From assembly GCF_030730945.1 (NCBI RefSeq), contig NZ_JAVAMS010000002.1, positions 930,001 through 994,000 of the forward strand: a stretch of 64,000 nt of DNA, given 5' to 3'. This document shows positions 27,286 through 43,679 of this stretch, piece after piece. The notes below the pieces were generated by a model. That model was given only the letters and a program-made list of their open reading frames with translations. It ran no database searches and was not told the origin of the DNA. This DNA is from Aurantiacibacter poecillastricola (GTDB taxonomy: Bacteria; Pseudomonadota; Alphaproteobacteria; Sphingomonadales; Sphingomonadaceae). Position 1 is the first letter of the stretch. The number at the start of each line of letters is the position of its first letter. A program made the position numbers and the translations under genes.

Positions 27286-28842
27286 TTAGTCGAGCCCGGC
27301 GACAGCGTCCATCCACTCCGGCAGCGGAGCGGTGGATCGGACGAACGAGGACAAGGCATCCCTTGCCGTCCCCGCCGGTGTGTCTTCTGCCGAGATCAGG
27401 ATCATCATGGTGGGCTGCGGCGTGGACAGGAGGCGATCAGCCATGTTCCTGAGCTTGAGCCTTGCCCGGCTGCTCCCCGTCCACTCGCCATGGCGATACC
27501 ACGTATAGGCAACACGCTGATGGGAACCGAGCGCCTTAAGCCGCTCGCCATGCGCGCCGTCAGGGGCGGGCACCGCTTCCAGCCATCGCCACTCGGTGCC
27601 GGGAGGAAGCGCTCCCTCCCCAAAAGCGCCTGCTTCGCGCCCGTCCTCTTGTGCGCCATAAAGTGCGAACACGACGTCCACAAGTTGGCCACTTTCGTTT
27701 CGGTAACTTCCACTCACAAGCCGGTCCGCCCCTGTCACCTGCGGAACCCATGGGTAGGAGTGCTGGGGCGCCGCCCGTACCCATCCATTGACCTGCGGCA
27801 GGGCTATCTCGGAAGGCAGTCCTGCCTCGACACTGCGAGCATCGCCCGACCAGAGGAGGATGCCAAGCGCTGCCACGCCGATACCGGCGGTCACGCTCCA
27901 TCCCCGCGCTTTCCAGCGTTCAAGCCACACCGGCCACTTCGCCGCCACAATGCGCTCGCCATTGATGAACGGGTCGTCGACATTTCGGTCGAAGAAGCGC
28001 CAGCCCAGCGCCAGCAGGATTGCCATGACGATGGCGAAGAACACCCAGCCATAAACGATGTGGTCGACCCCGGCAGCAAAGGCGATACCCTGTGTCTGTG
28101 CGATATAGATCGTGCCCCAGGCGCGCACGCCATTGGCAAGTATCGGCAGTGTGACGGCCAGCGCCATGAAAGCCGCGCGGCGGATCCCGGAGCGGAAGCA
28201 TACGTGCGACACCAGAGCGCCCAGGGCGATCATCGCGATCAGGAACTTCACGCCCGAGCACGCCTCAGCCACCTCGAACAGGCCAACGGGCGTATCGATG
28301 AACACCCCTTCGATCAGCGCAGGTATCCCGCTTGCGTGGGTTAGTGCGATGGTGATCTCTGCCGTGATCATCTGCAACGAGGGCACCAGTTCCTCCCCCA
28401 GCGGGACGAGGAAAAAGGCGTAAGCCAGGGGAAACATCAAACCCGCACACACCCTGGGACCAAGCAGTGCGATGGTCGCCGCTTGCGCTGCCGCGACCAC
28501 GCCAAGGTGGCTGGCAGTAGCGGTCCCGGAAATGTCTCCGAGCAGCCAGAGGAAGAGCGCAGCCGCCACAAGGCCGATCCCCGGCCACCATGCCTGCGGT
28601 GTCAGCTTCGCAAGCTGCCCGGCGCGCTGCCACACGAGCCAGGCGATGATCGCCGGGACCAGCAGGATATGGTTGTAGGTGGAGATATCCCACCATTGCC
28701 TCGCCATTTCGGCCCATGTTCCGGCGAACAGGGCCAGCAGTACACTCCAGGCCATCGCCAGTTGCAGCAGGGGCCGACGCCAGGCGGGAGCGATGCTCTC
28801 GGCAACGATGGCGCGCCGGGGTGAGATGGCATCAAGCGGCAT
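27286..28842 (-). CDS. xrtA: Exosortase A fused to an EpsI-type domain
   Basis: A 518-residue polytopic inner-membrane transpeptidase-like sorting enzyme. Catalytic residues of exosortases are in place: Cys195 (EACSGVKF), Arg240 (ANGVRAW) and His261 (VDHIVYGW). About eight hydrophobic helices cover residues 25-300. From about 330 to the end is a soluble EpsI-like (DUF3485) domain with VNGWVRAAPQHSYPWVP and the later AYTWYRHGEW. Exosortase A recognises C-terminal PEP-CTERM sorting signals on exported proteins; EpsI is linked to polysaccharide production. The gene overlaps the glycosyltransferase gene upstream by 11 bases. I chose the ATG at 28842, since the longer frame lies wholly inside that neighbour. 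No PEP-CTERM protein is encoded in the window. Confidence 0.94.
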   Translation of the reverse strand: MPLDAISPRRAIVAESIAPAWRRPLLQLAMAWSVLLALFAGTWAEMARQWWDISTYNHILLVPAIIAWLVWQRAGQLAKLTPQAWWPGIGLVAAALFLWLLGDISGTATASHLGVVAAAQAATIALLGPRVCAGLMFPLAYAFFLVPLGEELVPSLQMITAEITIALTHASGIPALIEGVFIDTPVGLFEVAEACSGVKFLIAMIALGALVSHVCFRSGIRRAAFMALAVTLPILANGVRAWGTIYIAQTQGIAFAAGVDHIVYGWVFFAIVMAILLALGWRFFDRNVDDPFINGERIVAAKWPVWLERWKARGWSVTAGIGVAALGILLWSGDARSVEAGLPSEIALPQVNGWVRAAPQHSYPWVPQVTGADRLVSGSYRNESGQLVDVVFALYGAQEDGREAGAFGEGALPPGTEWRWLEAVPAPDGAHGERLKALGSHQRVAYTWYRHGEWTGSSRARLKLRNMADRLLSTPQPTMMILISAEDTPAGTARDALSSFVRSTAPLPEWMDAVAGLD

Positions 28843-30052
28843 TTTGCAGTGATCCGCTCTTGAAACCCAGCAAGAGGGGAAGATCGGCCAGCAGGGCGGA
28901 CCAGCCCATTCTCTCCTGCACGAAATGCCGCGCCGCCGTACCAAGGGCCACGCCCGTTTCAGGATCGTGGCTCAGGCCCACGAGGCTCTCCGCGAAAGCA
29001 GCATCGTCATGCGCGATGACGAACTCTGCCGGGCCGGCGTCGATACCTACCGCGGCGTCGGGTGAGAGGACTACGGGCCGGGCCATAGCCATCGCCTCGA
29101 GGACCTTGTTCTGCACGCCGCGCGCGATGGTCAGTGGCGCGACGACCGCATCCGCGCCCGCCAGCCAGGGCCGCGTATCAGGGACTTCGCCAACTACATG
29201 CGTGCCGTTGATCCCATCGAGTGCCATGACTTCGCGCGCCGGAGCGCGTCCGACCACGTGGAATCGAGCATCCGGCAAGGCGCGCAGGACTTCGGGCATG
29301 ATGCGGCTGGCCATGCGGCAGACTGCCTCCACGTTGGGTGCGTAGTCCATCTGGCCGGTGAAGACGTAATGCGGGCCCTTCCGGGATAAAGCGGGTTCCG
29401 GTGTGACAATGGAAGGGTCGAACCGCACATGGTCTATGCCGTTTCGCAATGCGCGGATCTCGTGCTCACTCCCAACCCGCCTGCGCAGGAGATCTGCCTC
29501 CGGCTCGCTGACGAGCAGAGTTGTATCCGCGCGCTCGACCAAAGACGCTTCGACCCGCCCCAACAATTTGCCTTCACGCGCGTGGATCCATGCCCGCGGG
29601 CCGCTCGCGCGTTGGCCATATGCCTCGAACTTGGCCGAATCTACGTCGACCAGATCGACGACCAAACGCCCACGGTAGCCCCCCGGGACATATTGCCCCA
29701 TCTGTCCTGAGAACACGTAAACCGCACCGATATCGCGCTCGCGGAGCGTGGTCTCTACCCAGCGGGCGAGCCGAGGCGCCCGAAATGCAGCAAGGCTCAC
29801 CGGCTGTCGTTCGAGAAGCGCCTGCACCCCCGCAAGGGCGAGCGGCTTCGAGCGGGGCGCTACGCACCAGCTGCCAGCGATATCGGCGAGAATGGGTTCG
29901 TAGCCTGCATCGGCGCGCGTATCGGCCAGGCAGCCGACATGCACAGGTGCGATCTTCGAGAGCGCCTGAAGGATGTTGTAAGAGCGTATCCGGTCGCCCC
30001 GGTCCGGCGGGAACGGCAGGCGATGCGCCAGGAAGAGGATCTCGCCGCCCAT
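28832..30052 (-). CDS. XrtA/PEP-CTERM system glycosyltransferase (GT4-like)
   Basis: A 406-residue GT-B-fold glycosyltransferase. The N-terminal domain opens ILFLAHRLPFPPDRGDRIRSYN, typical of the exosortase-associated family. The C-terminal nucleotide-sugar domain shows VFTGQMDYAPNVEAV, DARFHVVGRAP, and the acidic/sugar-binding loop DAVVAPLTIARGVQNKVLEAMAMARPVV. It probably adds a sugar to the growing exopolysaccharide repeat unit on the cytoplasmic face of the membrane; donor and acceptor are unknown. It sits nine bases after the FemAB gene and overlaps xrtA, so it is translated as part of one operon. Confidence 0.9.
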   Translation of the reverse strand: MGGEILFLAHRLPFPPDRGDRIRSYNILQALSKIAPVHVGCLADTRADAGYEPILADIAGSWCVAPRSKPLALAGVQALLERQPVSLAAFRAPRLARWVETTLRERDIGAVYVFSGQMGQYVPGGYRGRLVVDLVDVDSAKFEAYGQRASGPRAWIHAREGKLLGRVEASLVERADTTLLVSEPEADLLRRRVGSEHEIRALRNGIDHVRFDPSIVTPEPALSRKGPHYVFTGQMDYAPNVEAVCRMASRIMPEVLRALPDARFHVVGRAPAREVMALDGINGTHVVGEVPDTRPWLAGADAVVAPLTIARGVQNKVLEAMAMARPVVLSPDAAVGIDAGPAEFVIAHDDAAFAESLVGLSHDPETGVALGTAARHFVQERMGWSALLADLPLLLGFKSGSLQNAA

Positions 30053-30061
30053 AGTTCTGGC

Positions 30062-31120
30062 CTAGCCCAAGCCCCGCGCGACCATGGGGCCGATGCGATT
30101 GGTAACGAGCAACGGCAGGCGCTTCCACAGGGCGATTTGCGACTGGTGTTTCGCGCTGGTGGGATCGGCATCGCGGGCCTCGTGTCCGGGCGCTGTCCAG
30201 CTGGCGTAGGAAAGCGGTTGCGGAGCAAATCCCCAGTTCTTCTTGAAGTACCATGCGCCGCTTCCCGTCTTGCTGCGCCCGAAATCGAAGCGGGTGCAGC
30301 CGCGTTGGCGAGCATGCATCATCAACTCGTAATACATCCGGTCATTGGCGCGCAGGGCCCGGGCCTCCCATGTCCCTCCGCCCCAATAGGGCATCACCGC
30401 TCCGCCGTGGTAAAGCGAGAGGACACTGGCGACCGGCTTGTGCTGGTGACGGATCGTGAGGATATCGGCGTCGAGACTGTCCAGCACTGCATCGAACAGG
30501 CTGCGCGGAAAAACGGGCGTACCGAGGTTGCGAACGCTCTCGGCGTAGACGGCGTAATGCTCGTGCCGGTCACGTGGCGCCGTGCCGACGTGGATCGTCA
30601 GGTCGCTTTTCAATCCCTTGCGCACTTCGGCGCGCTGCTTGCGGGGAATCGCCTTGAGCTGGGCGTCGTCATCGGCGGCAAGAGCTTCGATGAACCCGCA
30701 ATGGCTGTCGGTCCGCACCTGCCATCCCTCGCCAGCCGGTCCGCCGCGCAGTTCGATCGTCGGACAGGAAAGACGTTGTGCAAGCTCGCACGCAGCAGCA
30801 AGCAGGATAAGCGCAGTCGCCTGGCTATTTGCGAGCACGCCGCCCTCTACCGCAAACCCCGAGGAAGCGAGCATTCGCCCGAAGAGCGGGGAATGTATCT
30901 CGTTCAGCGGAAGCCACCCCGTTATCTGCCCGGCCTTCTCAGCCAGGAGTCCTCGCGCCCGCTGGCCGGTGCCCGCCTCGATCGCCAGTAGCCATGCCGG
31001 CCGATGGAAGACCGAACCGCCATGCTCCGCGACGAAACCCTCGATCCGGGCAGCCTCGTCGGGCTGGCGCAAATCCACGAGGCTCACCGTGTCGCGCAAG
31101 AGGGCGAAGGGCGCATTCAT
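30062..31120 (-). CDS. FemAB-family protein, XrtA system-associated
   Basis: A 352-residue GNAT-fold protein of the FemAB type. Seen are an N-terminal lobe with FHRPAWLLAIEAGTGQ, the central KAIPRKQRAEVRKGLKSDL, and the C-terminal lobe with VASVLSLYHGGAVMPYWGGG and RFDFGRSKTGSGAWYFKKNWGF. In the XrtA context this family is thought to transfer an aminoacyl or acyl group onto a polysaccharide or lipid-linked sugar, analogous to FemX on cell-wall precursors; this has not been proved. Its start overlaps the deacetylase stop in ATGA (31117-31120). A second, different FemAB/GNAT-like acyltransferase lies at 40943-41929, so the locus has two candidate transferases. Confidence 0.9.
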   Translation of the reverse strand: MNAPFALLRDTVSLVDLRQPDEAARIEGFVAEHGGSVFHRPAWLLAIEAGTGQRARGLLAEKAGQITGWLPLNEIHSPLFGRMLASSGFAVEGGVLANSQATALILLAAACELAQRLSCPTIELRGGPAGEGWQVRTDSHCGFIEALAADDDAQLKAIPRKQRAEVRKGLKSDLTIHVGTAPRDRHEHYAVYAESVRNLGTPVFPRSLFDAVLDSLDADILTIRHQHKPVASVLSLYHGGAVMPYWGGGTWEARALRANDRMYYELMMHARQRGCTRFDFGRSKTGSGAWYFKKNWGFAPQPLSYASWTAPGHEARDADPTSAKHQSQIALWKRLPLLVTNRIGPMVARGLG

Positions 31121-38194: not shown

Positions 38195-39421
38195 TCAGAC
38201 GAGGATCTCGCGCGCCTCGCCCTGGCCCAGAAAGGCGGACGGGCTGGCACTGGCGCCGTATGCCCCGGCGCAGAACACGGCGACGAGGTCTCCCACTTCG
38301 GCTCGCGGCAGGTGCGCGGCATCGGCAAGGCGGTCGAGCGGGGTGCACAGGCATCCCACCACATTCACCACTTCCTCGGGCTCGGCATCGAAGCGGCTGG
38401 CGATGGCGAGTGGGTAGTTGCGGCGCACCACGGTGCCGAAATTGCCCGAGGCGGCAAGCTGGTGGTGCAGACCGCCATCGGTGATGAGATAGGTGGTGTC
38501 GTGGCTCACTTTCCGGTCAACGATGCGGGTGAGGTAGACGCCCGCTTCGCCGACGAGATAACGCCCCAGCTCGATGGCGAATTGCGTGTCGCGAAGGGTT
38601 TCCGGAAGCTCGGCAAAGCGCGTCTCCAGCGCCGCTCCGATGACACCGATATCGAGCGGCGTGTCCTTATCGAAATACGGGATGCCGAAGCCGCCGCCCA
38701 TGTTGAGATGCGGGACGCCGACGCCTGCCTCTCGCGCGAGCGTGTCGGCAAGGTCGAGCGTGTGGCCTTGGGCTTCGACGATCGCCTCGGCATCGAGCGC
38801 CTGGCTACCGGAGTAGATATGGAAACCTCGCCAGTTCGCCCCGGCCTCGACTATGCGGCGAGCGAGGGCCGGCACCCGCTCCGCATCGACGCCAAAGGGC
38901 TTCGCGCCCCCGCCCATCTTCATGCCAGAGCCGCGCAGTTCGAAGCCGGGATTGACCCTTATGGCGAGGCGGGGAGCAACCTTGAGCTGCTTGCCGATGG
39001 TGAGGGCGCGCTCGGCTTCGTTCTCCGATTCAAGGTTCAGGGTAACGCCTGCGCGAATGGCGGCATGCAGCTCGCGGTCGCGCTTGCCGGGGCCGGCGAA
39101 GCTGATCTCGCGCGGCAGGTAGCCTGCCTCGCGCGCCCGTTCGAACTCGCCGACCGAGGCGATGTCGAGGCCATCCACCAGATCTGCGACGAATTCGAGA
39201 AGTGGCGCGTAAGGGTTTGCCTTCATGGCATAATGTATGTTGAGCCGCTTCGGCATGACATCGCGCAGGCTCTCGATCCTCGAAGCAATCATGTCGCGCG
39301 AATAGACGAAGAGCGGCGTGTCGCGCGCCTCCTTCACCAGCGCGCTGGCCGTGCGCCCGCCAATGGCGAGCTCGCCGTCCTTCGCCGTGAAACCGGGCGG
39401 GATCGGGCCGAGCGGTTTCAT
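38195..39421 (-). CDS. PLP-dependent decarboxylase, exosortase A system-associated
   Basis: A 408-residue fold-III decarboxylase related to DAP/ornithine decarboxylases. The PLP lysine is Lys67 in HYAMKANPYAPLL. The phosphate-binding glycines are in NMGGGFGIPYF, the C-terminal domain has the active-site Cys region GCLCTPLDRLAD, and the PLP-contacting Tyr is near GAYGAS. It should remove CO2 from an amino acid; the specificity helix cannot be read by eye. Its start overlaps the ligase stop in ATGA (39418-39421). In XrtA loci this decarboxylase is known to accompany the AMP-forming ligase, implying one pathway. Substrate and product remain unknown. Confidence 0.92.
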   Translation of the reverse strand: MKPLGPIPPGFTAKDGELAIGGRTASALVKEARDTPLFVYSRDMIASRIESLRDVMPKRLNIHYAMKANPYAPLLEFVADLVDGLDIASVGEFERAREAGYLPREISFAGPGKRDRELHAAIRAGVTLNLESENEAERALTIGKQLKVAPRLAIRVNPGFELRGSGMKMGGGAKPFGVDAERVPALARRIVEAGANWRGFHIYSGSQALDAEAIVEAQGHTLDLADTLAREAGVGVPHLNMGGGFGIPYFDKDTPLDIGVIGAALETRFAELPETLRDTQFAIELGRYLVGEAGVYLTRIVDRKVSHDTTYLITDGGLHHQLAASGNFGTVVRRNYPLAIASRFDAEPEEVVNVVGCLCTPLDRLADAAHLPRAEVGDLVAVFCAGAYGASASPSAFLGQGEAREILV

Positions 39422-40920
39422 GTCGCCTCCCGTAACAGGCGCGCGCGGTCGATCTTGCCGTTGGGATTTAGGGGCATGGCGTCGACCCAGCGGATAACGG
39501 CAGGTTGCATGAAATTCGGCAGCTCGCGCTTCAGCATGGCGCGCAGGCCCTCCTCATCACCGCCCCCGCGCACGACGAGGTGGATGGCGTGGCCCAGTTG
39601 CTCATCCGGCACGCCCAGCGCCACGGCCTCATCGGCAAATTCGCTCGCGATCACGACGTCCTCGATCTCCTGCGGACTGATGCGGTTGCCCGCGCTCTTG
39701 ATCATCGCATCGTCCCGCCCGACGAAATAGAGCAGCCCGTCCTCCGCCCGGCGCACGGTGTCGCCCGACCATACCGCCATGCCGCCATAGTGCGAGGCTA
39801 CGGGAGCAGGCTTGAACCGCTGCGCCGTGCGCTCGGGATCCTGCCAGTATCCTTGCGCCACTAACGGGCCGCAATGCACCAGTTCGCCCTCGCTAGCTAC
39901 CTCGCCATGCTCATCCACCACGAGGATTTCCGCGAAGGGAATGGCGCGGCCCATCGAGGTGGGGTGCGCGTCCACCAGCGCGGGGTCGAGATAGGTCGAG
40001 CGAAAGGCCTCGGTGAGGCCATACATCGGGAACAGCCGCGCATCGGGGAACAGGCGGCGCAGGTCGCGCACCAGCTCCTCGGTCAGCGCGCCGCCGCTAT
40101 TGGTGAGCCTTCGCATCGGAGCGACAGCCTCGGGCGGCCAGTCCTGTCCCGCCAGTTGCAGCCACAGCGGCGGTACGGCGGCAAGCGTCGTGATGGCGTG
40201 GCGCTGGCACGCCTTGATGACGTCACGCGGCGTGAGGTAATCGAGCGGCACCACCGAGCCGCCCGCATGCCAGGTGGAAAGCAGCTGATTCTGTCCGTAA
40301 TCGAAGCTGAGCGGCAGCACGGCCAGCGTGACGTCATCGGAAGCCAGCCCGAGGTAACGCGCCACGCTCACCGCGCCCAGCCACATATTGGCATGGCTTA
40401 GCATCACGCCCTTGGGCCGCCCGGTGGAACCACTGGTGTAAAGGATCGCGGCCAGTTCGTCCGGGTCGGCCTGCGAGAGATCGTCCAGAGGCGTGACTTC
40501 GCGCGCAGCGGCAAGCGCCTCCTTCTCTTCCACAATCGCGCAGACCGAGGGTACATCGCCTTCCTCCAGCGACGCGATCCGGGCGGAGTTCGCGACCAGC
40601 AGGCTCGCGCCGCTATCCTCCAAGATGTGCTTTACCTGCGCGTGCTTGAGGAGCGGATTGACCGGCACATGCACCAGCCCAGCCTGCGCCGCGGCGAGCG
40701 GCATCAGGCAGGTGAGCTCTCCCTTGGCCGCCCAGCTTGCAACGCGTGCGCCCTTCTGCGGCACCTGCGCCGCCAGCCATCCTGCCAGCAGCGCAACACG
40801 GCTTCTTAAGTCCTTCCAGCTAAGCGTTTCCCCGCGCAGCACCAGAGCCTGCCGCTCGTCCTCGCCGCGCACGGCGAGATGATCGAGCGGGAAAGGCGTG
40901 GGATCGGGCGCGGCGGACAT
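39418..40920 (-). CDS. AMP-forming acyl-CoA/acyl-ACP ligase, exosortase A system-associated
   Basis: A 500-residue ANL-superfamily adenylating enzyme. The P-loop-like core motif is LYTSGSTGRPKGVMLSH, the A5-type motif MYGLTEAF, the hinge YFVGRDDAMIKSAGNRISP, and the terminal lysine motif NPNGKIDR. It activates a carboxylic or amino acid as an adenylate and transfers it to a thiol. Because an acyl carrier protein gene lies only about 1 kb away on the other strand, the acceptor may be that ACP rather than CoA; this is inference. It is divergent from the acyltransferase gene at 40943 with a 22-base gap, so the two promoters must overlap coding sequence. It is coupled to the PLP decarboxylase. 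Confidence 0.92.
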   Translation of the reverse strand: MSAAPDPTPFPLDHLAVRGEDERQALVLRGETLSWKDLRSRVALLAGWLAAQVPQKGARVASWAAKGELTCLMPLAAAQAGLVHVPVNPLLKHAQVKHILEDSGASLLVANSARIASLEEGDVPSVCAIVEEKEALAAAREVTPLDDLSQADPDELAAILYTSGSTGRPKGVMLSHANMWLGAVSVARYLGLASDDVTLAVLPLSFDYGQNQLLSTWHAGGSVVPLDYLTPRDVIKACQRHAITTLAAVPPLWLQLAGQDWPPEAVAPMRRLTNSGGALTEELVRDLRRLFPDARLFPMYGLTEAFRSTYLDPALVDAHPTSMGRAIPFAEILVVDEHGEVASEGELVHCGPLVAQGYWQDPERTAQRFKPAPVASHYGGMAVWSGDTVRRAEDGLLYFVGRDDAMIKSAGNRISPQEIEDVVIASEFADEAVALGVPDEQLGHAIHLVVRGGGDEEGLRAMLKRELPNFMQPAVIRWVDAMPLNPNGKIDRARLLREAT

Positions 40921-40942
40921 CGAATTCCTGGAGTGCGGTTTG

Positions 40943-41929
40943 GTGACAGCGATCAGCTATCACGACACGATCGACGATCTGCAAGACCTGGATTGGTCCG
41001 GAAGCGGCCCTTTTGCCCGGCCCAGCTGGTTCGCCCTGCTTGAAAAGACTGTCGAGGCCCCGCTTTACGCCACCGCCCGCCAAGGCGTGCAGGCGGTCAC
41101 GCTACCCTTGCGCCAATCCGGCAGACATCTCGAAGCGCTGACCAACTGGTACGCCTTCACCTGGAGCGACCTGCACACTGGCGGACCGTCAGACGCAGCG
41201 TTGCTGGAAGACCTCGCCCGCGCCCTCGCAACCCGCACACCGCGTGTGACCCTTACCAAGCTGCCCGAGGAGGACCGCACGCTCGACCGGCTCCGGACCG
41301 CCTTCCGCGACGCAGGCTGGGCCGTGTTCGCGCAACCCTGCGACACGAACCATGTCCTCGAAGTCGGAGGGCGCAGCTTCTCGCAATACCTTGCAGACCG
41401 CCCCGGCCCTGTCCGCACTACGCTGCAACGCAAGGCGAAAAAGGTCGACGTAACCCTCTCGACCATGTTCGAGCCGGATGTCTGGTCTGCCTACGAAGCG
41501 ATCTACGCCGATAGCTGGAAGCCCAAGGAAGGCGATCCCGACCTGCTGCGCGCCTTCGCACAAAGCGAAAGCAAGGCAGGCCGCTACCGCTTCGCCCTCG
41601 CCCGGCACGAAGGAGCGCCGGTCGCCGCGCAATTCTGGACCGTGGACGGCGACACCGCCTACATCCACAAACTCGCTCACCGGAAAACCGCCGACCATCT
41701 CTCCCCCGGCACCACGCTGACAGCCGCCCTGTTCGAGCGCGTGATCGACACGGACAAGGTCGCCCGCGTGGATTTCGGCACGGGTGACGATCCCTACAAG
41801 CGCGACTGGATGGAGCAGGTTCGCACCCGTTGGCGGCTCGACTGCCTGCGGCCGGAAAACCCGCGCAACTGGCCAGTGTTTGTCCGCGCGATCGCGCGCA
41901 AGCTTGTTTCGCGCCGCCAGCGTGGCTAG
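40943..41929 (+). CDS. FemAB/GNAT-type acyltransferase of the exosortase-associated module
   Basis: A 328-residue protein of the acetyltransferase_6 (BioF2/FemAB-like) type. The N-terminal lobe has GPFARPSWFALLEKTVEAPLY. The C-terminal lobe has FALARHEGAPVAAQFWTVDG, TAYIHKLAH and VDFGTGDDPYKRDWM, the last resembling the conserved F-G-x-G-x-D-x-Y-K-x-x-W signature of these enzymes. It probably transfers an acyl group held on a thioester to an amine or hydroxyl. I chose the GTG at 40943, nine bases after TGGAG; a TTG three bases earlier is possible. It heads a four-gene plus-strand unit (acyltransferase, ACP, two hydrolases). It differs clearly from the FemAB protein at 30062. Confidence 0.82.
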   Translation: MTAISYHDTIDDLQDLDWSGSGPFARPSWFALLEKTVEAPLYATARQGVQAVTLPLRQSGRHLEALTNWYAFTWSDLHTGGPSDAALLEDLARALATRTPRVTLTKLPEEDRTLDRLRTAFRDAGWAVFAQPCDTNHVLEVGGRSFSQYLADRPGPVRTTLQRKAKKVDVTLSTMFEPDVWSAYEAIYADSWKPKEGDPDLLRAFAQSESKAGRYRFALARHEGAPVAAQFWTVDGDTAYIHKLAHRKTADHLSPGTTLTAALFERVIDTDKVARVDFGTGDDPYKRDWMEQVRTRWRLDCLRPENPRNWPVFVRAIARKLVSRRQRG

Positions 41930-41941
41930 GGCAATGGCGAC

Positions 41942-42235
41942 ATGGCTTCCGACCTTCCCGCTCCCACCGCAACGGCCGAGGATACAGACCTCATCCTGCG
42001 GCAGGTTCTCGCAGACGTGCTGGGCCTTCCGGCAGAGCGCGTGGCCGAATTCGACGAGGATTCCGGCCTGTTCGGGCATCTCCCCGAACTCGATTCCATG
42101 GCCGTCGCCACGCTGCTGACCGAGATCGAGGATCGGCTCGACATCGTTATCGAGGATGACGAGGTGGATGGCGAAATGCTGGAAACCTATGGCGGCCTCC
42201 ACACCTTCGTCATGACAAAGCGCAGCGACGGCTAA
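41942..42235 (+). CDS. Acyl carrier protein, exosortase A-associated
   Basis: A 97-residue acyl carrier protein. The phosphopantetheine serine is Ser52 in PELDSMAVATLL, which reads DSM rather than the common DSL. The surrounding helices are acidic, with ILRQVLADVLGLP before and EIEDRLDIVIEDDEVDGEML after. It is not the fatty-acid synthesis ACP, because of context and sequence. It probably holds the acid activated by the neighbouring AMP ligase. It is 12 bases after the acyltransferase gene and two bases before the GTG of the next gene, so it is tightly coupled to both. Confidence 0.92.
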   Translation: MASDLPAPTATAEDTDLILRQVLADVLGLPAERVAEFDEDSGLFGHLPELDSMAVATLLTEIEDRLDIVIEDDEVDGEMLETYGGLHTFVMTKRSDG

Positions 42236-42237
42236 GC

Positions 42238-42900
42238 GTGCAGACGGGTCTCTGGCCCTGCCCCGGCAGCAGCGAGGAATATGCCCTGTCTTTCGACCGG
42301 GGGCGCAAGCATCGCCTGCTGGTCGTACGTGCGCTGTTCGACGAGGGTAGCAGCCTGCGGCACTTCACGGTCGAGGTCATGCGGCAGCTCGATGCGCATG
42401 GCGTGGATACCTTCCTGCCCGATCTGCCGGGCACGAACGAAAGTCTCGTACCGCTTGAACTTCAAACCCTAAACGACTGGAAGGAAGCGATTAAAGCGGC
42501 ATCCGATCATTTCGGGCCGAGCCATATGTTCACCCTGCGAGGCGGCGCGCTTATCGCCTCCGACAGCTTGCCGGTGATCCAGTATGCCCCTGCCTCGGGC
42601 GCCAGCCTGCTGCGCGCGATGCTCCGCGCCAAGGTGCTTACGCTGCGAGAGGCCGGGCGCGACGACACGCGAGAGGATCTGTTCGAGCGTGGGCAGACGG
42701 AAGGCCTGCGCCTCGCTGGCTACAAGCTGGGCCCGGCCATGATCGCCGATCTGCAGAATGCCGAGATCCCGCATGAAAACGCCGTGGAGATCGCACAAGG
42801 CGACGTGGGCGGCGCGGGTCTCTGGCTCCAGGCGGAACCCGCTCACGACGCCCGCCAGGCGGAGACTCTCGCGCGCCTCGTGCTGGAGCGGCTTCGATGA
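42238..42900 (+). CDS. Alpha/beta-hydrolase-like protein lacking the usual nucleophile (hydrolase 2 of the XrtA module)
   Basis: A 220-residue protein with an alpha/beta-hydrolase outline: the strand LLVVRALFDEGSSLRHFTVEV and then DTFLPDLPGTNES. At the expected nucleophile elbow it reads FTLRGGALIAS (Leu100-Arg101-Gly102-Gly103), so the G-x-S-x-G serine is missing. It resembles the smaller of two hydrolases described beside exosortase A ligases. It may be inactive, structural or use other chemistry. It starts with GTG just after the ACP stop, and its own stop overlaps the next hydrolase in ATGA (42897-42900). The close coupling suggests the two hydrolases act together. Confidence 0.78.
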   Translation: MQTGLWPCPGSSEEYALSFDRGRKHRLLVVRALFDEGSSLRHFTVEVMRQLDAHGVDTFLPDLPGTNESLVPLELQTLNDWKEAIKAASDHFGPSHMFTLRGGALIASDSLPVIQYAPASGASLLRAMLRAKVLTLREAGRDDTREDLFERGQTEGLRLAGYKLGPAMIADLQNAEIPHENAVEIAQGDVGGAGLWLQAEPAHDARQAETLARLVLERLR

Positions 42901-43679
42901 CCCGCCGTCACCTCACCTTCAAATGCGCAGGGGAGACCGTGGTGGGCACGCTCGACGAGGCGCCCGGCAAGGTCGGCCTGCTGATCGTGAGCGGTGGCAA
43001 CATCACGCGTAACGGCGCGTTTGCCGGCATGTCGCGACTGGCGGCGCGCATGGCGGAAAGGGGATACCCCGTCTTTCGCTTCGACCGCCGGGGGGTCGGC
43101 GACAGCAGCGGCTACAATGCCGGCTACGAAGGCTCGTCCCTCGATATCGAGCGGGCGCTGGCACAGTTCCGCCGGGAGTGGCCGGGACTGCGCTCGGTCG
43201 TCGCCTTCGGCAATTGCGACGCCGCCAGCGCGTTGATGCTGGGCAATGGCTTTGGCTGCGACGGCCTCGTCCTCGCCAATCCGTGGACTTTCGACAATGA
43301 CGGCAGCGAGGAGCATACGCCCGGTGCCATCAAGTCGCGCTACATGCGAAAACTGCGCGATCCGCGCGAATTGCAGCGGCTGGTGACGGGCAAGGTGAGA
43401 CTGCGCAAGGTCGCGCGAAGTGTGCGCCGCGCGCTGCGGGGCGACACCACCACCACGCATCTGGGGGAGGATATGGCCGACGGTCTCGCCAGCTACAGGG
43501 GCGATGTCCTCATACTGCTGGCAGGCCGAGATCGTACCGCGCAGGCCTTCCGCACGAACTACCCGCTGGCAGAGGAAAACGTGATGATCTGCCCGGGTGC
43601 CGATCACGCCTTCAGCGAGCCCGAGCATGCGGACTGGATGACGGACAAGATCGCGGCGATGCTTGCCGCGCAGGACTAG
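42897..43679 (+). CDS. Alpha/beta hydrolase with Cys nucleophile (hydrolase 1 of the XrtA module)
   Basis: A 260-residue alpha/beta hydrolase. The nucleophile elbow is AFGNCDAASALML, which places Cys107 where serine normally stands. Asp212 (LLAGRDRTA) and His237 (PGADHAFSE) complete a Cys-Asp-His triad. A conserved early segment, FRFDRRGVGDSSG, resembles the family of exosortase A-associated hydrolases. A Cys nucleophile suits transacylation or thioester exchange, so the enzyme may take a group from the ACP; that is inference. It is the last gene of the plus-strand unit and converges with the RlmD-like gene, sharing one CTAG as both stops (43676-43679). Confidence 0.85.
   Translation: MTRRHLTFKCAGETVVGTLDEAPGKVGLLIVSGGNITRNGAFAGMSRLAARMAERGYPVFRFDRRGVGDSSGYNAGYEGSSLDIERALAQFRREWPGLRSVVAFGNCDAASALMLGNGFGCDGLVLANPWTFDNDGSEEHTPGAIKSRYMRKLRDPRELQRLVTGKVRLRKVARSVRRALRGDTTTTHLGEDMADGLASYRGDVLILLAGRDRTAQAFRTNYPLAEENVMICPGADHAFSEPEHADWMTDKIAAMLAAQD

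Follow-up and report, generated by a model that had tools for sequence, protein, structure and literature searches.

Gene content and organization of the locus

The window, a stretch of 64,000 nucleotides from the Aurantiacibacter poecillastricola contig NZ_JAVAMS010000002.1 (positions 930,001 to 994,000 of the forward strand), contains between its positions 38195 and 43679 six genes distributed in two divergent units: a pyridoxal phosphate (PLP)-dependent decarboxylase and an adenosine monophosphate (AMP)-forming ligase on the minus strand, and a FemAB-like protein, an acyl carrier protein (ACP) and two hydrolase-like proteins on the plus strand. The open reading frames (ORFs) of the decarboxylase (38195..39421) and the ligase (39418..40920) share 4 bases, and a gap of 22 bases (40921..40942) separates the start codon of the ligase gene from the GTG start of the FemAB-like gene (40943..41929). 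The latter is followed by the gene of a standalone ACP (41942..42235), with the phosphopantetheine serine, Ser52, in a DSM motif, and by two genes that also share 4 bases: one encoding a hydrolase-2-like protein (42238..42900) and the other encoding hydrolase 1 (42897..43679). A preliminary description of this DNA had reported the six ORFs, the distance between the divergent starts and Ser52, and all of them were confirmed.

Three of the proteins score above the cut-off of an NCBIfam model: the decarboxylase (TIGR03099, 579.9 bits; cut-off 478.45), the ligase (TIGR03098, 628.1 bits; cut-off 592.35) and hydrolase 1 (TIGR03100, 211.3 bits; cut-off 168.45). Since the FemAB-like protein and the ACP also match PF13480 and PF00550, respectively, the six ORFs are not products of chance. 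By name, the gene set is largely known: NCBIfam labels the ligase, the decarboxylase and the last hydrolase as exosortase A-associated and, as had been noted before, these models give no reaction or product. They belong to a set of four (TIGR03098, TIGR03099, TIGR03100 and TIGR03101), three of which are matched above the cut-off in this neighbourhood. The window differs from that set in its hydrolase-2-like protein, which is below the TIGR03101 cut-off, and the models are silent on substrate and pathway; the ligase, ACP and decarboxylase genes are also found in genomes where exosortase A (XrtA) fails its cut-off.

The decarboxylase

The best relatives of the decarboxylase in a sequence search of the PDB are two entries of BtrK (230 bits; E-values 3.3e-67 and 4.5e-67), one of which is titled L-glutamyl-[BtrI acyl-carrier protein] decarboxylase, and the next in the ranking are diaminopimelate decarboxylases, the best of them at 136 bits. 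Identity is 36% to BtrK and 28% to the LysA of the same genome. In a FastTree phylogeny of 72 tips, BtrK is inside a clade of 69 tips that contains the family of the window decarboxylase and looser relatives (local support 0.89), and the genome's own LysA (TIGR01048, 420 bits) is outside it; the branching order within the clade is weakly supported, with 0.50 at one node. The window protein has the PLP-binding lysine and shows CTPLD in the loop of the catalytic cysteine, where BtrK has CTPED and the own LysA has CETGD. Among 148 relatives scoring over 300 bits, 147 show CT and one shows CE; this and the other residue counts include a few genomes counted twice (L046 is L101 and L050 is L109). 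In our reading, the glutamate of the CE loop contacts the far amine of the substrate in diaminopimelate decarboxylases, and its loss is consistent with a substrate that carries a thioester at that end, although CT in place of CE as a mark of carrier-bound decarboxylases is a feature chosen in this analysis from a comparison made without VinO itself. By these sequence comparisons the decarboxylase is closer to BtrK than to the diaminopimelate decarboxylases, and an identity as a diaminopimelate or free-amino-acid decarboxylase was rejected on the scores, the tree and the residues of the cysteine loop; its score against the lysA model TIGR01048 is 236.7 bits, under the cut-off of 297.9.

Among the matches listed, the nearest named relatives belong to Aurantiacibacter odishensis and to an uncultured Erythrobacter bin (86% identity in the decarboxylase). 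Looser relatives of the decarboxylase in L074, L077 and L078 adjoin two or more ligase ORFs resembling adenylation domains (A-domains), a setting in which carrier-bound decarboxylation might supply products of peptide type. Four other loci (L081, L082, L083 and L084) contain relatives of a type often seen in the sample's family f32, which score 283-304 bits against TIGR03099, below the cut-off, and no ligase of the TIGR03098-type family was found in the stretches fetched for them.

The ligase

The PDB relatives of the ligase, which is A-domain-like, include adenylation domains of non-ribosomal peptide synthetases, VinN and beta-aminoacyl-ACP synthetases, with a two-module gramicidin synthase at the top over the whole length. 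When only the pocket segment (residues 190-350) was compared, nine hits were obtained, with two VinN sequences at the top (E-values 5e-13 and 7e-13) and the best match to any other protein at 6e-9. An aspartate of VinN aligns with D207 of the ligase, and the Lys-Arg pair of VinN, in the YGxTE region, aligns with Phe306 and R307. We take these VinN residues to be Asp230, Lys330 and Arg331, which presumably contact the amine (Asp) and the carboxylate (Lys and Arg) of the substrate; the offsets agree with the alignment. The aspartate is present in 127 of 127 ligase relatives scoring over 450 bits and the arginine in 126, the remaining one being a gap, whereas the lysine of VinN is replaced in the family, mostly by phenylalanine. 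Thirteen lower-scoring matches include three truncated family members that also show the arginine, two more distant proteins that do not, and two with gaps. The remaining six of the thirteen are A-domain-like ORFs of the same loci that have a YGP(T/S)E motif and can be read at both sites; all show the aspartate and none shows the arginine. The ligase also matches acyl-CoA ligase and DltA models, all of them below the cut-offs. As judged from the alignments, its pocket is nearest to that of VinN.

The carrier protein, the hydrolases and the acyltransferases

The phosphopantetheine serine is present in all 108 ACP relatives. Hydrolase 1 shows Cys107 as the predicted nucleophile, with Asp212 and His237; among 91 relatives, the nucleophile position is cysteine in 89 and arginine in two, and the aspartate and the histidine are each present in 87, the rest being gaps. 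Its structural model (pLDDT 90) has a fold resembling feruloyl esterases and lipases, a likeness compatible with a hydrolase, a thioesterase or an acyltransferase alike, which does not separate them. The hydrolase-2-like protein scores 31.6 bits against TIGR03101 (cut-off 202.75) and shows no Pfam match, which corrects the previous description of two alpha/beta hydrolases. Since arginine replaces the nucleophile in 92 of 92 members, hydrolase 2 is probably a catalytically dead partner. The hydrolase 1 gene is convergent with an RlmD-like gene, with which it shares 4 bases (43676-43679).

The FemAB-like protein matches only PF13480 in Pfam. Its AlphaFold model (pLDDT 95) has FemX, aminoacyl-tRNA-dependent peptide synthases and aminoacyl-phosphatidylglycerol synthases as top Foldseek hits, and the hit to 7z6a (E-value 3.7e-13, TM 0.60) indicates a predicted FemX fold, the feature that this protein would have in common with FemX/FemAB aminoacyl transferases; sequence identity to the listed FemX, FemA, MprF and related aminoacyl-transferase hits is just 7-16%. 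Its assignment to the exosortase FemAB family TIGR03019 was rejected, as it has no NCBIfam hit. The cluster contains two distinct FemAB-type proteins, and TIGR03019 is matched only by the other, encoded outside the six genes (30062..31120, minus strand).

Of the 39 loci of the wider sample described below, 22 contain an acyltransferase that is FemX-fold, of the TIGR03694 type or another PF13480-containing GNAT, and nine contain a DegT aminotransferase. The FemAB-like protein of the window is an optional member, present in 12 of the 39. In six loci from the order of genome G240 (L186, L188, L189, L190, L191 and L193), the ligase-decarboxylase pair is accompanied by a GNAT of the PF13480 type, an amidotransferase-like ORF and a DegT aminotransferase.

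Co-occurrence with exosortase A

The exosortase A gene of the window (27286..28944, minus strand) encodes XrtA and a C-terminal EpsI domain in a single ORF (TIGR03109 and TIGR02914). It is in the same cluster as the six genes but about 9 kb away, and the word 'beside' in the preliminary description is loose. The cluster also contains the gene of an XrtA-system exopolysaccharide export protein (TIGR03027; 37377..38063, minus strand), next to the decarboxylase gene, and genes encoding an amidotransferase (TIGR03108), a glycosyltransferase (TIGR03087), a deacetylase (TIGR03006) and an ATPase (TIGR03015).

Presence in other genomes was counted with the curated family cut-offs in two samples: 299 genomes of Pseudomonadota (sample 1) and 150 genomes from the order of G240 (sample 2). 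Sample 1 contains 29 genomes with XrtA, 26 with the decarboxylase and 24 with both (Fisher p 2e-28); in sample 2 the corresponding numbers are 38, 28 and 24 (p 3e-14). After merging and removal of duplicates, 63 genomes have XrtA, 44 with the decarboxylase and 19 without it, and six have the decarboxylase without XrtA; two of these six (G146 and G435) show weaker exosortase matches. Hydrolase 1 was found in 39 of the 44 genomes with both, in two of the 19 with XrtA alone and in none of the six with the decarboxylase alone. The sample 1 part of these counts comes from its 29 XrtA genomes and two decarboxylase-only genomes, and hydrolase 1 was absent from all 108 genomes of sample 2 that have neither XrtA nor the decarboxylase. 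The five misses among the 44 are one score just under the cut-off (G124, 166.0 against 168.45), two short pieces (G381 and G397) and two genomes with nothing near the cut-off (G400 and G408). Hydrolase 1 thus tracks the pair formed by XrtA and the core (ligase, ACP and decarboxylase), like a logical AND. In G264, hydrolase 1 is about 24 kb from XrtA and the decarboxylase is about 3.9 Mb off on a contig of 4.4 Mb, possibly circular.

Loci of at most about 20 kb around the decarboxylase were compared in 39 of the 44 genomes with both families, a set that leaves out the window's own genome and four others; absence from such a view means that a gene is not nearby, and hydrolase 2 was looked for only in fetched loci. 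The ligase is present in 36 of these 39 loci, the ACP in 33 and both hydrolases together in 32. The core with both hydrolases, that is, five genes without the FemAB-like one, is found in 31 loci and all six genes in 12. Joint conservation in exosortase A genomes, the lack of which had been named earlier as refuting the idea, thus holds in this wider sample for five genes but not for the six.

A separable three-gene core

The 80 named loci that scored best among the matches listed, which are close relatives of the window (74 have Sphingomonadales titles and six give only a class or phylum), contain 60 loci with all six genes, one with the core and the FemAB-like gene, 10 with only ligase, ACP and decarboxylase, and nine with fewer genes, several of them on short contigs. 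The core-only genomes are six isolates and four metagenome-assembled genomes or uncultured bins by title, and G146, one of these four, is rated 100% complete; one core-only genome is also counted among the six decarboxylase-only genomes. XrtA is above the cut-off in none of the 10 core-only genomes (seven of them without any match) and in all four controls, and the same holds for hydrolase 1 and for the XrtA-type exporter, although all 10 have lower-scoring exporters (56-101 bits). No strong match to the FemAB-like profile was found in these 10 genomes (best 50.5 bits, in one genome), whereas the four controls score over 430 bits. In most of these genomes the core occupies the same place as in the window, with homologues of RlmD in seven, of ZapE in nine and of SdhB in nine of the 10, one representative per cluster having been scanned. 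The earlier view that all six genes form a single unit linked to exosortase A is not supported, given the 10 core-only loci without XrtA and the 19 of 63 XrtA genomes without the decarboxylase, and a single six-gene unit was rejected on the locus counts, 12 of 39 in the wider sample and the core-only loci.

In a tree of ligase and decarboxylase with 111 tips, the 12 tips labelled as lacking XrtA are scattered and require at least nine changes by parsimony; the label is based on hydrolase 1 in the locus, and XrtA itself was searched in 14 named genomes and the two samples. The separate placements of L109, of L118, of L170 with L173 and of L111 with L119 have local supports of 0.946 to 0.995, and the nodes near L110 and L128 are weak. 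The motifs of ligase, ACP and decarboxylase are intact in all 10 core-only loci, and the pairwise ratio of non-synonymous to synonymous substitution rates (dN/dS) is 0.05-0.25 in 10 of 12 comparisons among them, with dS of 0.8-2.2, the other two being saturated. The core genes of these loci are under purifying selection. The intact motifs and low dN/dS at loci without XrtA indicate that the core has a use without exosortase A, and ligase, ACP and decarboxylase look like a separable pathway of their own.

In G107, a genome with no XrtA match, the core is placed among genes encoding two GT2 glycosyltransferases, a WsaF-type protein, a polysaccharide deacetylase and a DegT aminotransferase. Three loci of one genus without XrtA above the cut-off (L180, L181 and L182) contain the decarboxylase and the ligase, and the ACP was found in two of them.

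Proposed pathway and comparison with known systems

From the families, residues, gene order, co-occurrence and separability described above, we infer the reactions, substrate and acceptor of the following route. The ligase would form an aminoacyl-AMP from an alpha-amino dicarboxylic acid, aspartate- or glutamate-like, and load its distal carboxyl on the phosphopantetheine of Ser52 of the ACP. The BtrK-like decarboxylase would then take the alpha-carboxyl off the ACP-bound acid, giving an omega-aminoacyl thioester that would be beta-alanyl-like or similar to a gamma-aminobutyric acid (GABA) unit. An acyltransferase, the FemX-fold protein here and perhaps a GNAT or a TIGR03694 enzyme elsewhere, would attach the unit to an acceptor amine or hydroxyl, for which a surface glycan or glycolipid is the likeliest bearer. 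In genomes that also have exosortase A, hydrolase 1 and the inactive-looking hydrolase 2 may hand over or proof-read the carrier-bound unit. The kinship to BtrK and VinN supports the earlier suggestion that ligase, carrier and decarboxylase act in series, and on balance we regard a cassette for carrier-bound decarboxylation, with transfer to a surface glycan or glycolipid, as the probable function of the core.

An explicit precedent is the vicenistatin starter unit: according to excerpts of PMC11284099, VinN loads 3-methylaspartate on the standalone VinL, the thioester is needed before VinO decarboxylates, and FlvN uses aspartate. As proposed for the window, these systems combine a standalone A-type ligase and a standalone ACP with a PLP decarboxylase whose substrate is an amino dicarboxylic acid tethered to the ACP, and the pocket Asp and Arg of VinN are conserved in the window ligase family, its Lys being mostly Phe. 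Unlike them, the six genes include neither a polyketide synthase nor a second, protecting ligase by Pfam, and their context is exopolysaccharide and exosortase genes or neither. A search for glutamate mutase (TIGR01503) found none in 39 genomes, yet none in the control genomes either, so it is uninformative on 3-methylaspartate. The BtrI/BtrJ/BtrK system of the butirosin side chain has in common with the window a decarboxylase of the BtrK kind and an ACP at hand; BtrJ has another ligase fold and the later butirosin steps are without counterpart among the six genes. The butirosin unit is transferred to an aminoglycoside amine (excerpts of PMC11405602), in parallel to the acylation of an amino sugar. 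In D-alanylation, the ligase DltA and the carrier protein DltC feed an envelope polymer, and the window ligase resembles DltA in matching its models, although below the cut-offs. The window set differs from the Dlt system in its added decarboxylase, and the Pfam scan of the six genes and two flanking genes found no MBOAT domain. To our knowledge, carrier-bound decarboxylation is known only from antibiotic pathways.

The acceptor is the weakest step of this route; the DegT, GNAT and polysaccharide neighbours favour the amino group of a glycan. Several observations weigh against the route as a whole. Only one of the two presumed carboxylate contacts of VinN is retained in the ligase (Arg and not Lys), and the replacement of this Lys, mostly by Phe, makes an alternative substrate possible. 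At the 39 loci with XrtA, the ligase was not found in view in three, the ACP in six and any of the three acyltransferase types in 17. The core-only genomes have no XrtA-type exporter above the cut-off, which indicates that the acceptor there is not this exopolysaccharide, and no homologue of the window's FemX-fold protein over 51 bits, so that the transfer there would presumably need another enzyme. The ORF adjoining the ligase in G107 matches no Pfam family. Relatives of FemX normally use aminoacyl-tRNA and not aminoacyl-ACP, although the donor for the FemX-fold protein of the window could be the latter.

Alternative explanations

The ligase and the decarboxylase might instead be independent enzymes: the decarboxylase would turn a free amino acid into a free amine, and the ligase would be an ordinary acyl-CoA or fatty-acyl ligase. 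The 237 bits of the decarboxylase against the lysA model, the matches of the ligase to many acyl-CoA ligase models, all of these below the cut-offs, and the three loci of 39 without a ligase near the decarboxylase can be read in this way. However, BtrK is about 94 bits above the free-substrate enzymes in the PDB list, the CT loop is kept in 147 of 148 decarboxylases and the A-domain Asp in 127 of 127 ligases, and the two genes overlap by 4 bases in the window and are still accompanied by the ACP gene at the 10 core-only loci, so that we judge independent functions quite unlikely. A different product, N-acyl amino acids or aminolipids with a surfactant or signal role, would be made if the ACP carried a fatty acyl or aminoacyl chain for an N-acyl amino acid synthase of the TIGR03694 type. 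Genes of this type are present in six of the 39 XrtA loci by a profile of our own (confirmed by NCBIfam in L044, L055 and L056), one adjoins the ligase-decarboxylase pair in L179, from a genome in which XrtA does not reach the cut-off, and the disruption of one such gene in Methylomonas LW13 was followed by the loss of a polysaccharide band, as told in excerpts of PMC11072679. The other 33 loci have no such gene and the pocket residues of the ligase suit an amino acid better than a fatty acid; this product is unlikely.

FemABX proteins of Gram-positive bacteria make the pentaglycine amine that serves sortase A as acceptor for protein attachment, and the cassette could in the same way make an amine that exosortase A uses as attachment point for cleaved PEP-CTERM proteins. 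The distribution of hydrolase 1 (39 of 44, two of 19 and none of six genomes, and none of the 10 core-only named genomes) would agree with this, and for the archaeosortase A system excerpts of PMC7157517 propose as acceptor an amine lipid made by decarboxylation, a decarboxylated serine lipid. Nevertheless, 19 of the 63 XrtA genomes have no decarboxylase of this family above the cut-off and the core-only genomes retain it without XrtA; as XrtA is found without the core and the core without XrtA, the acceptor amine was demoted as main explanation, and it is very improbable. A more specific version is that the Cys hydrolase and its Arg partner would set the omega-aminoacyl unit from the ACP on a lipid or glycan and PEP-CTERM proteins would be tied to that amine; XrtA genomes without the cassette would then use another amine, and in core-only genomes this unit would go to a different acceptor. 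It has a slim outside chance. The preferred reading is still the transfer of an omega-aminoacyl unit to a surface glycan or glycolipid.

Significance

No paper treating the six-gene set was found in the open-access literature searched, which leaves most of the subscription literature outside, so that a published assay could have been missed. Excerpts of PMC2907700 and PMC7157517 contain nothing on the set, the main text of PMC1569441 does not mention the decarboxylase, ligase, hydrolase or FemAB, and excerpts of PMC9850573 mention neither decarboxylase nor acyl. The families had already been named and the chemistry has precedents in antibiotic pathways; the joining of both, the separability of the core and the AND pattern of hydrolase 1 were not found in that literature.

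The separability means that the core is not merely an accessory of exosortase A, and hydrolase 1, with hydrolase 2, follows the pair formed by the core and exosortase A. If the VinN/BtrK-type function is true, families that have a name but no assigned reaction would gain a concrete substrate class, and there is reason to examine exopolysaccharides or PEP-CTERM proteins for groups of the beta-alanyl or GABA kind. Carrier-bound decarboxylation would then become part of the biology of the cell envelope in common bacteria of water and soil.

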